Source: Ferruginibacter sp. (GTDB lineage Bacteria; Bacteroidota; Bacteroidia; Chitinophagales; Chitinophagaceae). Taken from it: a DNA stretch of 16,921 nucleotides. The stretch lies in contig JANXOQ010000440.1 of assembly GCA_025357775.1 (NCBI GenBank), forward strand, positions 1 to 16,921, given 5' to 3'. This document shows, piece after piece, positions 9,183-14,004 of the stretch. Both the position numbers and the translations under genes were made by a program. Each line of letters starts with the position of its first letter. Positions within the stretch are counted from its first letter, which is position 1. The notes under the pieces were generated by a model. That model saw nothing but the letters and a program-made list of their open reading frames with translations, did not search any database and had not been told where the DNA came from.

Positions 9183-11249
9183 CTACATATTTCTCCTATA
9201 CTGCCCACCAACACTGTATAAAGCATTTGTAATTTCCCCCAATGAACAATGCTTTACTGTTTCCATTAATTCTTCAAAAAGATTGCCATTGGCTATAGCT
9301 ACATTTTGTAATTGCTTTAGCATAGTTGCGTTTTTATCTTTGTGGCGTTCTTTAAATGCATTGAGCATAGTAATTTGCAATTCTTTTTCTTCGGTAGTGC
9401 TTCGTATTACTTCGGCAGGTAAAATTGTAGGTGAACCATTTTTATTTAAGAATGTATTTACACCTACAATTGGAAATTCTCCAGTATGTTTTAATGTTTC
9501 GTAATACAAACTTTCTTCTTGTATTTTATTGCGTTGGTACATTCTTTCCATGGCACCTAATACACCACCACGTTCTGTAATCCTTTCAAACTCTGCCAAT
9601 ACAGCTTGTTCCACTAACTCTGTCATTTCTTCTATTAAAAAAGAACCTTGGTTTGGATTTTCATTTTTAGCAGTTCCTAATTCTCTGTTTATAATTAATT
9701 GTATAGCCATTGCTCTACGTACACTTTCTTCTGTAGGTGTAGTAATTGCTTCATCATATGCGTTTGTGTGTAAGCTATTGCAATTATCATAAATAGCATA
9801 CAAGGCTTGCAGGGTAGTTCGGATATCGTTAAAATCTATTTCTTGTGCATGCAAACTCCTGCCGCTTGTTTGTATATGGTATTTTAATTTTTGGCTACGG
9901 TCGTTTGCTTTGTATTTATACTTCATTGCTTTTGCCCAAATTCTTCTTGCTACTCTGCCTATCACAGAATATTCAGGATCCATTCCATTACTAAAAAAGA
10001 AAGAAAGATTTGGAGCAAAGTCATCAATATTCATTCCTCTGCTCAAATAATATTCTACATAAGTAAATCCATTGCTTAATGTAAATGCAAGCTGTGTTAT
10101 AGGATTAGCGCCAGCTTCAGCAATATGATAGCCACTAATACTTACGCTGTAAAAATTTTGAACTTTATTACTAATGAAATATTCTTGTACATCACCCATT
10201 AATTTCAATGCAAACTCTGTACTAAAAATACAAGTGTTTTGTGCTTGGTCTTCTTTCAAAATATCTGCTTGCACAGTACCACGTACGCTTGATAATGCTT
10301 TTGCTTTTATGGTTTCATACACATCGGTAGGTAAAATATCTTTTCCGCTTAAACCTAGTAAGCGTAATCCTAATCCATCATTACCTTCTGGTAAAAACCC
10401 AGCCCCCCTGCCCCCCGAAAGGGGGTTCTGGGAAGCCTGAATATTTTCAGCTGTTTCTTTTTTACTTGTAGAACTTAAGGTCTTTGGTAAATTGGTATGA
10501 TGTATCGGTATGCCGTCCGTGCCTATGTATTTTGGCAAATTTTCTATATTATATTTTACTTCTATAATTTTATTTACTTCTTCTTGTAAATTATTTTCGA
10601 TGATATATTTTTCACACATTTGGTCTATGGCAGCATTCATAAAAAATGCTAATAGCATTGGTGCTGGGCCATTTATCGTCATGCTTACCGAAGTCTTTGG
10701 GTCACATAAATCAAAACCACTATACAATTTTTTTGCATCATCTACTGTAGCAATACTTACTCCGCTGTTTCCTACTTTACCATAAATATCTGGCCTATGT
10801 GCTGGGTCTTCACCGTATAAGGTAACACTATCAAACGCAGTACTAAGTCGCTTTGCAGGCTGCCCCACACTTACATAATGAAAACGCCTGTTGGTTCTTT
10901 CTGGCCCACCTTCGCCAGCAAACATACGAGTCGGGTCTTCGCCTTCTCTCTTTAAAGGAAATACACCTGCGGTAAAAGGAAACTCGCCAGGTACATTTTC
11001 TTGCAATTGCCATTGCAAAATATCTCCCCAATCTTTAAATTTTGGTAAATAAACTTTACTCACTTTTGTACCACTTAAAGATGTAAAAGTAAGTGGTTGT
11101 TTTATTATTTTATCTCTTACTTTAAATTCATATTCATCGCCTTCGTATTGCTTTACAACATCCCTCCATTTTTCTACTAATTTTTTTGCATCTGGATGTA
11201 GTTGCTCTTTTAGTTCGTTGTATTTATCTATAAGTGTTTGCTGTAGCAT
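9183..11249 (-). CDS. icmF: IcmF-type acyl-CoA mutase, catalytic subunit (C-terminal half of split IcmF)
   Basis: The 688-aa protein is the TIM-barrel mutase part of a fused isobutyryl-CoA mutase (IcmF), which interconverts isobutyryl-CoA and n-butyryl-CoA using adenosylcobalamin. Family-specific stretches are present: [33 protein letters not shown] (90-102, in place of the PWTIRQYAGF of methylmalonyl-CoA mutase), [61 protein letters not shown] and [16 protein letters not shown]. It has no B12-binding domain of its own; that domain is on the product of 12538-14004. In the family these are one chain of about 1,100 residues, so the gene is split in the linker before the mutase part. Residues about 274-284 ([11 protein letters not shown]) come from an inserted repeat element just before [10 protein letters not shown]. 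The start follows the nuclease gene by 14 bases. A related branched acyl-CoA such as pivalyl-CoA is an alternative substrate. Confidence 0.88.
10398..10432. repeat. GC-rich palindromic element inserted in frame in the mutase gene
   Basis: In an AT-rich gene, 10398-10432 is a block of C and G runs. CCCCC, GAAA loop, GGGGG form a hairpin at about 10412-10425, flanked by CCCAG (10398-10402) and its complement CTGGG (10428-10432). Bases 10401-10419 are identical to 13384-13402 in the other IcmF half. On the coding strand it reads [11 protein letters not shown], in the same frame as the other copy. Confidence 0.75.
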
Positions 11250-11263
11250 ATAATATTTTTAAA

Positions 11264-12541
11264 TTATTTTTTTGTTGGTGCAATTTTATTCTTTTTAAGA
11301 AATCGAGTTACTTCTGCCTGTAATATTTTAGCAGAAGGTAATTTATCTTTTAAATTTTTAGGTAATAATTTACTAAAATGATATTCACTTACACCTATTG
11401 GATGGTTAATACTTGTTAAGGCATAATCTACTTCTATATTATCTTTAGCTCCACACAGTATAATTCCGATAGTTGGGTTGTCATGCTCTTGCCGAAGTTG
11501 TTTGTTCACCATATTCAAATAACCATTTAACTGACCTGCATGAGATAATTCAAATTCATCCATTTTTAATTCTATTACCACATAGCATCTTAAGTGCAAA
11601 TGATAAAAAAGTAAATCAATAAAATGATCTTTACGACCTGCCTTTAATTTTACTTGTCTGCCTACAAATGCAAAGCCTGCACCAAGCTCCATTACAAAAT
11701 CTTGTATGTGTTTTACAAGATGATCTTCTAATTGTTTCTCATTTATATTTTCACCAATTTGCATCATTTGAAAAATATAAGGATCTTTCAATATTTGGTT
11801 AGCTAAATCTGCTTGAACTTTAGGTAAGGTTAAATGAAAGTTGGATGCTTTTTTTGTTTTGTGTTGTCTTACATATAAATCTGTTTCAATTTGATATTGT
11901 AAAACTGCACGGCTCCAATTGTTTTCTATTGTTTTATTTATGTACCAAAAACTTTCCTCTTGCTCTTTTATTTTATCTAACAATGTAACATGGTGCCCCC
12001 ATGGAATACTCACTAACAAAGGGTTTGAAAGAAAATAAATTTTGTTGCTAAATTGGGCAACGGGCTGTTGCCCAATTACATTATCATCTTCTAATAGTGC
12101 AGCAGGTTGCTGCACTATTAGATTTTTTTTATTCTTTTTCAATTGGGCAGCAGGCTGCTGCCCAATTGAAGTTTTACTGTTTTTTTGTATTAACGCAGCA
12201 GGTTGCTGCGTAATTGGTTTGCTATTTGTTAATTGGGCAACGGGCTGTTGCCCAATTAACAAATCGGGGTATGTAGTCGCAAATTGACGCATGTATTTTA
12301 GATTTCGATAAGAATAACCTTTCGTATCAGGAAAAGCTTTTTGCAAATCAACGGATAGTTGTTCTATCACTTTTGTACCCCAACCTTCGGCATCTATTTT
12401 TTGTACAATTTGCTTACCTATATACCAATATAAAATAAGCATATCACTATTAACTTTTAGCGATGTTTGCAAGCGACTGTGGCTAATATTATTTTTTAAT
12501 TCGCCTAGCCATTGGTTATATTTTTTTGCAACTAATTTCAT
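11264..12541 (-). CDS. DUF1016/YhcG-family PDDEXK nuclease-like protein with repeat-expanded loop
   Basis: The 425-aa protein has the DUF1016 N-terminal domain (YNQWLGELKNNIS, LILYWYIGKQIV, GYSYRNLKYMRQFA), the family motif IPWGHHVTLLDK (about 181-192) and a C-terminal PDDEXK nuclease fold with FIDLLFYH (Asp309) and VVIELKMDEF (Glu324, Lys326) as the likely metal-binding set. Members are linked with restriction, mobile elements and phage conflict, but substrates are poorly defined. In the family a single QQPVAQ-like motif directly precedes PWGH. Here that spot is expanded into five copies with prolines at 100, 114, 130, 146 and 160, separated by polar linkers, and the last is cut off from IPWGH by a 20-residue spacer. 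The start codon overlaps the stop of the upstream IcmF gene (ATGA, 12541-12538), and the mutase gene follows after 14 bases: a foreign gene in the middle of a metabolic operon. Confidence 0.88.
   Translation of the reverse strand: MKLVAKKYNQWLGELKNNISHSRLQTSLKVNSDMLILYWYIGKQIVQKIDAEGWGTKVIEQLSVDLQKAFPDTKGYSYRNLKYMRQFATTYPDLLIGQQPVAQLTNSKPITQQPAALIQKNSKTSIGQQPAAQLKKNKKNLIVQQPAALLEDDNVIGQQPVAQFSNKIYFLSNPLLVSIPWGHHVTLLDKIKEQEESFWYINKTIENNWSRAVLQYQIETDLYVRQHKTKKASNFHLTLPKVQADLANQILKDPYIFQMMQIGENINEKQLEDHLVKHIQDFVMELGAGFAFVGRQVKLKAGRKDHFIDLLFYHLHLRCYVVIELKMDEFELSHAGQLNGYLNMVNKQLRQEHDNPTIGIILCGAKDNIEVDYALTSINHPIGVSEYHFSKLLPKNLKDKLPSAKILQAEVTRFLKKNKIAPTKK
12051..12264. repeat. Array of five in-frame palindromes inside the nuclease gene
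   Basis: Five hairpins, with centres at about 12064, 12106, 12154, 12202 and 12244 (spacing 42, 48, 48, 42). Perfect stems: 12051-12061/12067-12077 (11 bp), 12090-12104/12108-12122 (15 bp), 12138-12152/12156-12170 (15 bp), 12193-12200/12204-12211 (8 bp, extended past one bulged A) and 12224-12241/12247-12264 (18 bp). The inner arms differ between units (GGGCAAC, GTGCAGCA, GGGCAGCA, ACGCAGCA), and in each case the opposite arm carries the matching complement. Each unit codes in the same frame for a variant of QQPxA. The sequence between units is AT-rich and unrelated. Confidence 0.9.
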
Positions 12542-14004
12542 TTTTTATCATCCATCATTTTTATAACTGCATCTAGTTGGTATAATTTAGTGGCAATAGC
12601 AGCTTGGTCTTTTGCCCACTTATTATATTCATTTATTGTTTCACTAATTTCTGCTAAATAACGTACTCTTTTTGGTGGAATAATTGAACCATCCATACCG
12701 CCACTTTTTTCAAATGGCTTGTGTGTACCAAAACTTGAATTTGTTTTTTTATTAATTACGTCAATCAGTTTATCAAATAAATTATTAACCCCAGCATCGT
12801 TAAATTGTGCAGCAATTGTACCCACTACAGGCAAGTCTTCATCTTTAGCATCCCACAATTCGTAGTTGCGTTTGTATTGTTTACGTACATCATGCAATGC
12901 ATCTAATGCGCCAGCTTTATCAAATTTATTTAAGCAAATAACATCTGCATAATCAAGCATATTTATTTTTTCTAATTGTGATGGTGCACCATACTCAGGT
13001 GTCATCACATACATACTCACATCGCAATGCTCCAATATAGAAGCATCGCTTTGTCCCACACCTGCACTTTCTAAAATAATTAAATCAAACCCAGCAACTT
13101 TGCATATATCTAAAGCTTCTGTTACATATTGGCTCAATGCTTTATCGCTTTCTCTTGTAGCAAGGCTACGCATATATGCCCTTGGCGATGAAATAGAATT
13201 CATCCGTATTCTATCCCCCAACAATGCACCGCCTGTTTTCTTTTTGCTTGGGTCTACAGATATTACAGCTATGGTTTTATCAGTATAATTATTTAAAAAC
13301 CTGCGAACAATTTCATCTGTAACGGATGATTTTCCTGCACCGCCTGTACCTGTTATGCCGAGGACAGCCCCAGAATCCCCCACAGCCCCCCTGCCCCCCG
13401 AAGGAAAGCCCCCCTGCACCCCGAAGGGGGGTTCTACCGAAGCAGAGATCAATTTTTTATATTGACCATTTTCTGCTACAGTAATTGCTTTTGCAATACT
13501 TATGACATCTTTCCATTCCCCTAATGCAAACTTTCCATTTTCGTTAGGACTTGCCTTTAAGCCCTCCTGTGGAGGGTTTGGGAGGCGGCATTTATCTATC
13601 ACATCTTGTATCATTCCATCAAGCCCCATTCTTCTGCCATCATCTGGGCTATAAATTCTGGTAATACCATAGTTATGTAATTCTTCAATTTCAGATGGCA
13701 AAATTGTACCACCACCACCACCGAATATTTTTATATGCCCACAACCATTTTCGTTAAGCAAATCTTTCATGTATTTAAAAAACTCCACATGCCCACCTTG
13801 ATAGCTAGTAATGGCAATGCCTTGCACATCTTCTTCTATGGCACATTCTACAATTTCTGCTACACTTCTATTATGCCCAAGGTGTATTATTTCAGCACCT
13901 TTGCTTTGCAATATTCTGCGCATAATATTTATAGCTGCATCATGCCCATCAAATAATGCTGCTGCAGTTACTAGTCTTACTTTCTTTTCTGTTACTTCAG
14001 TCAT
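12538..14004 (-). CDS. icmF: IcmF B12-binding and MeaI-type GTPase chaperone subunit (N-terminal half of split IcmF)
   Basis: The 488-aa protein joins a cobalamin-binding domain (about 8-138) and a G-protein chaperone domain (about 215-440), in the same order as the N-terminal half of fused IcmF. B12 signs are FDGHDAA (Asp19-x-His21, the lower axial ligand of a DxHxxG-type site), the SYQGGH region and the GGGGGT loop. GTPase signs are Walker A GTGGAGKS (219-226), VDPSKKKTGGALLGDRIRM, ESAGVGQSD and NKFD (359-362). The GTPase loads and protects adenosylcobalamin in the mutase. The C-terminus (KRVRYLAEISETINEYNKWA... to MMDDKK) matches the linker that in fused IcmF leads into the mutase. Two stretches, 141-153 and 191-214, are coded by inserted GC-rich repeats on either side of the domain linker. 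The stop overlaps the nuclease start by four bases. Confidence 0.9.
   Translation of the reverse strand: MTEVTEKKVRLVTAAALFDGHDAAINIMRRILQSKGAEIIHLGHNRSVAEIVECAIEEDVQGIAITSYQGGHVEFFKYMKDLLNENGCGHIKIFGGGGGTILPSEIEELHNYGITRIYSPDDGRRMGLDGMIQDVIDKCRLPNPPQEGLKASPNENGKFALGEWKDVISIAKAITVAENGQYKKLISASVEPPFGVQGGFPSGGRGAVGDSGAVLGITGTGGAGKSSVTDEIVRRFLNNYTDKTIAVISVDPSKKKTGGALLGDRIRMNSISSPRAYMRSLATRESDKALSQYVTEALDICKVAGFDLIILESAGVGQSDASILEHCDVSMYVMTPEYGAPSQLEKINMLDYADVICLNKFDKAGALDALHDVRKQYKRNYELWDAKDEDLPVVGTIAAQFNDAGVNNLFDKLIDVINKKTNSSFGTHKPFEKSGGMDGSIIPPKRVRYLAEISETINEYNKWAKDQAAIATKLYQLDAVIKMMDDKK
13362..13436. repeat. GC-rich tandem repeat element inserted in frame before the GTPase P-loop
   Basis: Two direct 21-base copies, 13384-13404 and 13407-13427, differ at one base (pattern AGCCCCCCTGC[C/A]CCCCGAAGG). 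They are followed by GGGGGGTTCT, which can pair with the C runs, and preceded by further G/C-rich sequence to 13362. Bases 13384-13402 are identical to 10401-10419 in the mutase gene. The coding strand reads residues 191-214, including EPPFGVQGG and PSGGRGA, directly before LGITGTGGAGKS. Confidence 0.75.
13561..13587. repeat. Second type of in-frame palindromic element (PNPPQEGL)
   Basis: CCCTCC (13562-13567), loop TGT, GGAGGG (13571-13576), followed by TTTGGGAGG. It codes for LPNPPQEGL at residues 141-149, just after the B12 domain. The type differs from the C-run elements but has the same character: a short GC-rich hairpin set in frame in a linker. Confidence 0.6.

Follow-up and report, generated by a model that had tools for sequence, protein, structure and literature searches.

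For the nuclease I-TevI, affinity is described as equal for two targets, its homing site and an operator at the gene that encodes it (PMC2988022). In ParB/Noc, contacts are reported to come from helices α4, α6 and α8; residue 201 (Arg in Noc) reads position 6 of the parS/NBS site, and residue 173 reads position 1 (PMC7383237). By our own count, the distance of these positions from the centre of the 16-bp site is three and eight bases, respectively. YhcG was presented in a 2005 survey, in the part of it consulted, as a nuclease family of unknown function; the portion of the later literature covered here adds no function for YhcG, and no description of the palindromes was found in the part of one open-licence library that was covered. 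The window, a stretch of 16,921 nucleotides from Ferruginibacter sp. (contig JANXOQ010000440.1), holds a DUF1016/YhcG PDDEXK nuclease gene of 425 aa (11264..12541, minus strand; Pfam, PADLOC) with five in-frame palindromes. It appears from their analysis that a widespread bacterial DNA-cutting family carries in its own gene a symmetric sequence that its protein recognises, both changing together.

All five inverted repeats are in frame and lie within the DUF1016 open reading frame (ORF). They are part of 40-nt repeat copies (n = 5) starting at 12038, 12080, 12128, 12176 and 12218, with the 42/48/48/42 spacing already given in a preliminary description of this DNA. The first palindrome in the gene (12224..12264) has 18-bp arms and codes for DLLIGQQPVAQLTN, the second (12193..12211) has perfect arms of 8 bp and codes for TQQPAAL, the third (12138..12170) has 16-bp arms and codes for TSIGQQPAAQLK, the fourth (12090..12122) has 15-bp arms and codes for NLIVQQPAALLE, and the fifth (12051..12077) has 11-bp arms and codes for VIGQQPVAQF, all on the minus strand. 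The perfect arms enclose loops of 1–5 nt, and the related peptides are, in gene order, IGQQPVAQL, TQQPAAL, IGQQPAAQL, IVQQPAALL and IGQQPVAQF. Arm variants between the copies (GGG, GTG and ACG, 7–9 bases from the centre) are mirrored by CCC, CAC and CGT in the opposite arm, the compensating changes that had been noticed before. Synonymous-codon shuffles of the gene (n = 400) contain 0.10 such repeats on average and 2 at most, against the five observed; when the peptide of the zone was fixed and its codons were redrawn 1000 times, the mean was 0.02 and the maximum 1. The folding energy of the 261-nt strand lies 13 standard deviations below that of dinucleotide shuffles (n = 200). The five palindromes are confirmed as real and far above chance.

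Palindromes are found across the family. Of the six DUF1016 genes in the window genome, all but one have palindrome arms of 9 bp or more; the remaining gene has 7-bp arms, and the palindrome sequence differs gene by gene. DUF1016 is present in 12/39 near-set genomes and 109/296 genomes of the phylum (the window's own genome being counted in both), and also in 61 loci of a phage collection and in Escherichia coli; a similar site occurs in most genes inspected, and E. coli yhcG, too, carries palindromes. Copy number varies, as had been suspected: K-12-like yhcG has three sites, one of them imperfect, and the L073 allele has two. Of 117 nonredundant genes (172 ORFs taken, 14 short ones dropped, redundancy removed), 69 have perfect arms of 9 bp or longer in the zone ahead of the SWSHY/PWGH motif, whereas 1.5 are expected from synonymous shuffles; in two control zones from the same genes, the count is 4 and 0. 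With a looser rule (8 of 9 pairs), a palindrome is present in 95/117. The centre is the first base of a codon in 77/81 palindromes, and 30 of the 81 are centred exactly six codons ahead of the tryptophan. The QQPxA-type motif, earlier taken as a trait of the DUF1016 family, does not hold for it, as QTLSA, NALRS, VSLIR, PSPTD and other peptides occupy the same place: the peptide is not conserved across the family, the palindrome is. The site is less well preserved than the nuclease domain; only 25% of the pairs with similar nuclease domains (80–95% identical, n = 109) have an identical 9-base arm. In L042, L046 and L058, the DNA immediately upstream of the main gene holds what seem to be pieces of a further DUF1016 gene, whose palindrome is different.

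The palindromes are selected at the DNA level. The species genomes were scanned with a pattern in which the core and the ATT/AAT ends were fixed and nothing else, giving at least 119 matches in at least 113 stretches. Among the 119 matches listed, 91 are in DUF1016 genes (defined as the profile match widened by 60 nt), 5 are within 500 bases of one and 23 are elsewhere; some of these 23 fall in apparent DUF1016 remnants. In 67 of those 91 in-gene matches listed, the outer triplets left free by the pattern are complements of each other. At fully synonymous third positions eight bases away from the centre, 211/243 cases have the complementary base. Differences between copies within a gene are compensated in 36/39 cases at k7 (k being the distance from the centre in bases), 28/47 at k8 and 24/47 at k9, together 88/133, and in just 5/25 at k10. 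Selection on the peptide alone was rejected on the strength of the synonymous shuffles and the free third positions, and homologues show stem covariation, which bears out the view that what is preserved is the palindrome and not the peptide.

In the genomes tested, the palindromes are nearly restricted to their own gene. A core search of the window genome gave five exact matches, all in this DUF1016 gene, and two near misses elsewhere. A search with the exact core of another subtype in 12 other genomes, picked because a match was already known, gave 17 occurrences overall, with a single one in 9 of the 12, and 12 of the 15 sites inspected there lie within DUF1016 genes; a reversed control pattern matched once in two of the 12. 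No regulon of sites in trans was seen in these same preselected genomes. The flanks of 95 genes (319 kb) contain 9 matches to the gene's own core, 8 of them 12–94 nt from a gene end, five upstream (the start being taken as the first ATG) and three downstream. In E. coli, a 33-base query finds places in 5335/5426 genomes with a median of 3 per genome, the two strands of the palindrome being taken as counted separately, and the rows that were opened (4 of 30 listed) are all at the yhcG locus.

Assignment of the window protein to DUF1016/YhcG is based on Pfam matches to DUF1016_N (E = 4.8e-39) and YhcG_C (E = 2.1e-61), with 134.0 and 206.8 bits for PF17761 and PF06250, above the cut-offs of 32.8 and 32.5. 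The YhcG_C PD-(D/E)XK nuclease domain (11336..11797, minus strand) has a fold like that of EndoMS/NucS. A recognition helix of a helix-turn-helix is predicted from alignment A4 and the models at residues 75–90, the GYSYRNLKYMRQF region (12272..12319, minus strand). The IPWGHH segment (residues 179–190; 11972..12007, minus strand), equivalent to LSWSHY, would by its motif also correspond to LSxGHA of ParB. In the model of the window protein, the palindrome-coded stretch (residues 106–156) interrupts the N-terminal domain and has mostly a predicted local distance difference test score (pLDDT) below 50. The model of a relative has NucS/EndoMS and Noc/ParB as its best fold matches, and it suggests a ParB/Noc-like DNA-binding domain together with a NucS-like nuclease. 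A sequence search for a solved structure of the family returned none (best E 0.097). No ParB/Srx CTPase domain was present among the window-protein matches (E ≤ 0.001) or in 25 of the 48 A5 families, no search having been aimed at it.

The bases of the palindrome coevolve with the predicted DNA-reading residues, a point absent from the preliminary description. The set comprised 314 ORFs, 275 of which have a stem when 6 of 8 pairs are required, a lenient criterion that admits some chance stems, and 200 nonredundant genes were used for the couplings and for a table of residue–base pairings; it includes genes fetched with a CAGACA pattern, in which k1–k6 are fixed and k7–k9 are free. Outside the palindrome-coded columns, the top couplings in the 200 genes were 80–k7, 146–k3, 118–k3, 83–k8 and 147–k2 (alignment column, then base). 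In a sister-pair test (130 disjoint pairs, 2280 tests), 80–k7 ranked first (p = 1.8e-13), 83–k8 second (2.6e-9), 118–k3 fourth (8.4e-7) and 147–k2 eighth (7.6e-6), while 146–k3 was fifteenth, 84–k5 twenty-first and 122–k4 154th. A contact set of 25/285 columns, which like the contact columns of the prediction described below was drawn up after the first coupling scan, holds 11 of the top 20 sister-pair couplings. Permuting within divergence classes 25 times gave p values no lower than 4.7e-6, a floor beaten by six couplings: 80–k7, 83–k8, 118–k3, 136–k5, 76–k5 and 243–k4. The last three were unexpected; column 76 is the glycine of GFS, at the turn of the helix-turn-helix, and column 243 is in the nuclease domain.

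Several of the pairings are clean. Arg80 goes with G in 80/83 genes and Gln80 with C in 13/13; Trp, Tyr and Phe at column 83 go with T (30/30, 16/16 and 9/9) and Glu83 with C (25/28); Asn84 goes with A (40/41), Gly118 with C (16/16) and Arg147 with C (134/138). Others, such as Ser80 and Thr118, are mixed. The window protein, with Arg80 and Gly118, agrees with the table at its four sites in the scanned range (k7 = G, k3 = C), the gene being itself one entry of that table. Prediction with whole clusters left out was strong at k3 (0.85 vs. 0.50) and mixed elsewhere, with no gain at k5, k6 and, at one clustering, k8. Column 118, the residue after the W of LSWSHY/IPWGHH, coevolves with k3 and would be ParB residue 201, and columns 79–84 would fall within the recognition helix; this register of columns to ParB residues is set by motif, and on the same motif basis the recognition helix would correspond to α4 of ParB. 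A putative palindromic cognate site and residue–base coevolution, a combination expected of a ParB/Noc-type reader, were both found on statistical grounds.

The most likely role of the palindrome is that of a binding site for the very protein in whose reading frame it lies, because a ParB/Noc-like domain is predicted, ParB and Noc read palindromes, and the residues coevolve with the bases. We regard it as fairly probable that the palindromes are double-stranded DNA binding sites of the encoded protein, with self-control as their main use. Their use would be autoregulation in the first place and a homing-type target in the second, and in vivo the protein presumably binds them as a dimer. The site would span ~19 bp (two arms of nine bases around a central base), the N-terminal domain acting as a ParB/Noc-type palindrome reader and the C-terminal domain as a NucS-like nuclease. 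Most family members would keep at least one cognate site in their own coding sequence, typically six codons before SWSHY/PWGH, with extra copies sometimes there or just outside the gene. By binding its own gene, the protein would block transcription, so that a dangerous nuclease stays scarce, and specificities would diverge so that paralogues do not cross-react. Its mode of action would resemble that of I-TevI, a homing nuclease which is also its own repressor. This explanation is close to the earlier suggestion of a self-targeting or self-regulating gene. The window protein also matches the PADLOC entry PDC-S02 (3.3e-134), which places the family among the listed anti-phage defence families; going by its name, we take PDC-S02 to be a candidate defence system. 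Given this listing, a self-limited defence nuclease is possible.

Self-control leaves unexplained the genes with two specificities and the complementarity kept in the k7–k9 differences between copies. These two features fit structure reading, allele exchange or traces of past specificity. A broader proposal, which we hold only tentatively, is that these are self-addressed nucleases: the gene would encode a reader and hold the matching palindrome, extra copies of other specificity would be traces of an earlier specificity, and lone palindromes would be homing-like targets or footprints. As the palindrome would lie inside the reading frame of its own reader, gene and site would move and change specificity as one unit.

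Homing-type use, in which DUF1016 would cut gene-less alleles bearing the palindrome and repair would copy the gene in, is the strongest of the alternatives, although we consider it rather unlikely. Lone palindromes at gene-less loci would then be targets or footprints, and E. coli strains U13A and SK1144 (L078, L081) are candidates: they are without yhcG and have a lone 27-bp palindrome at the site, between gltD and nanQ, identical to the first in-gene palindrome of L070, L071, L072 and L079. The patchy distribution of DUF1016, in the near set and in the phylum alike, is also consistent with homing, as is one genome of the mutase comparison. In the window (9183–14004), a mutase is split in two ORFs, both open, with the DUF1016 gene between them; the upstream neighbour (12538..14004, minus strand) is the half with the B12-binding domain and the MeaB GTPase, and the downstream neighbour (9183..11249, minus strand) is the methylmalonyl-CoA-mutase-type half of the same split gene. 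The two are fused as one mutase ORF in 22/29 relatives searched (open frame of at least 1122 aa). Genome G022, like the window, has the split mutase with DUF1016 inside, whereas in G016 (L374) the split mutase lacks DUF1016, and a lone imperfect palindrome stands at the junction that follows a 525-aa ORF. The latter palindrome, read by eye (the exact-repeat scan lists none there), is at most 14/19 identical to the window sites and is flanked by 10-nt complementary outer arms.

Against homing, the gene would itself be a target, since its own site is intact, neither a duplication nor a footprint of insertion was shown, and loss of the gene could just as well have left the lone palindromes behind. 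A comparison of E. coli alleles finds the palindromes intact beside and inside the gene, and insertion of the gene does not interrupt the target. Insertions (IS1, IS629 or another) disrupt yhcG in several E. coli strains (L074, L075, L076, L077, L080, L082, L083), and the break in L077 falls where the third palindrome ends. Lone CAGACA-type palindromes were also seen in L193, L217/L362, L232 and L278, where no DUF1016 match was detected in the stretch fetched.

It is improbable that the nuclease recognises an extruded hairpin or cruciform, similar to a Holliday junction, rather than linear duplex. The outer arms do co-vary between copies of one gene though their sequence is free, dropping at k10, and YhcG has been placed near YraN-like Holliday-junction-resolvase nucleases (PMC1189080). 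However, base-specific coevolution in a ParB-like geometry fits duplex reading, and the best fold matches are those to NucS/EndoMS and Noc/ParB. The two modes are not mutually exclusive. A purely mutational cause, the correction of quasi-palindromes, is possible; against it, complementarity drops sharply beyond base 9, and the residues coevolve with the bases.

A hairpin acting in the mRNA, as protein target, in translation control or as RNase site, is very improbable. The predicted hairpins are stable, but an RNA stem should tolerate G-U, and no excess of G-U over A-C mismatches was found (21:30, 5:16 and, at free third positions, 27:31). The mismatch types disfavour selection at the RNA level, so that of the earlier proposal of a hairpin selected as DNA or RNA, the first half stands and the second is disfavoured. 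A selfish element like the Rickettsia palindromic elements (RPEs), or a palindrome-templated amplification, inserted in frame, as the preliminary description proposed, is the least credible explanation: five copies are present here and a varying number in other genes, but the palindromes are not dispersed in the genomes tested (a dispersed repeat was rejected for the window genome, where exact core matches occur only in this gene, and most inspected sites elsewhere are again in DUF1016), they keep to one family with a constant homologous zone and codon phase, and their sequence tracks the residues of the protein.

If the palindrome is indeed the protein's own site, the genes of many members would allow the DNA site of their proteins to be predicted, E. 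coli YhcG being the first case to take, and function would become open to direct tests. The family would offer a large natural collection of protein–DNA specificities that coevolve, in which one coding sequence is under constraint both for the protein and for the site which that protein binds. If the nucleases are self-addressed, hundreds of natural protein–site pairs would be available, from which a recognition code could be read directly.

Compared with known systems, the DUF1016 palindromes share with RPEs the location inside ORFs with the frame unbroken, but RPEs, in the part of the source covered, are ~100–150 nt long and occur in intergenic regions, RNAs and coding genes (PMC4316617). 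The DUF1016 palindromes are ~19–41 nt long and belong to one gene family and one zone, and no element dispersed at many loci was found in the window genome. DUF1016 genes are reported from Rickettsia too, and a link between them and RPEs is conceivable. In repetitive extragenic palindromic (REP) systems with their REP-associated tyrosine transposases (RAYTs), short palindromes likewise stand beside the gene of a DNA-processing enzyme. REPs are described as extragenic and of high copy number (PMC3733652), whereas the DUF1016 palindromes are in-gene, one or few per genome tested. High-copy extragenic palindromes were not found in these genomes, in which RAYT transposases were not searched for. 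Palindromic amphipathic repeat coding elements (PARCELs) also have palindromic DNA in tandem coding repeats, but, as far as the source was covered, they encode a 25-residue amphipathic motif, many in membrane-targeted ORFs (PMC2996958); in DUF1016, the peptide is free and the DNA is kept. ParB/Spo0J–parS and Noc–NBS likewise have a palindromic site, and the DNA-binding fold predicted for DUF1016 may be similar to theirs. Bacillus subtilis also has a parS inside spo0J. The residue after the tryptophan of LSWSHY and the residues of the predicted recognition helix coevolve with positions like those of 201 and 173 (PMC7383237); in contrast to ParB and Noc, DUF1016 has an added nuclease domain, and its site is private to each gene and inside it. 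I-TevI and other T4 intron endonucleases, finally, are nucleases and autorepressors; for I-TevI it is shown that the DNA-binding domain also recognises an operator of the enzyme's own gene, which limits how much of the enzyme is made (PMC2988022). The catalytic domain of I-TevI is GIY-YIG and that of DUF1016 is PD-(D/E)XK, and the I-TevI operator, in the portion of the source seen, overlaps a promoter upstream of the ORF, whereas the putative DUF1016 site lies inside the reading frame of the DNA-binding domain itself.
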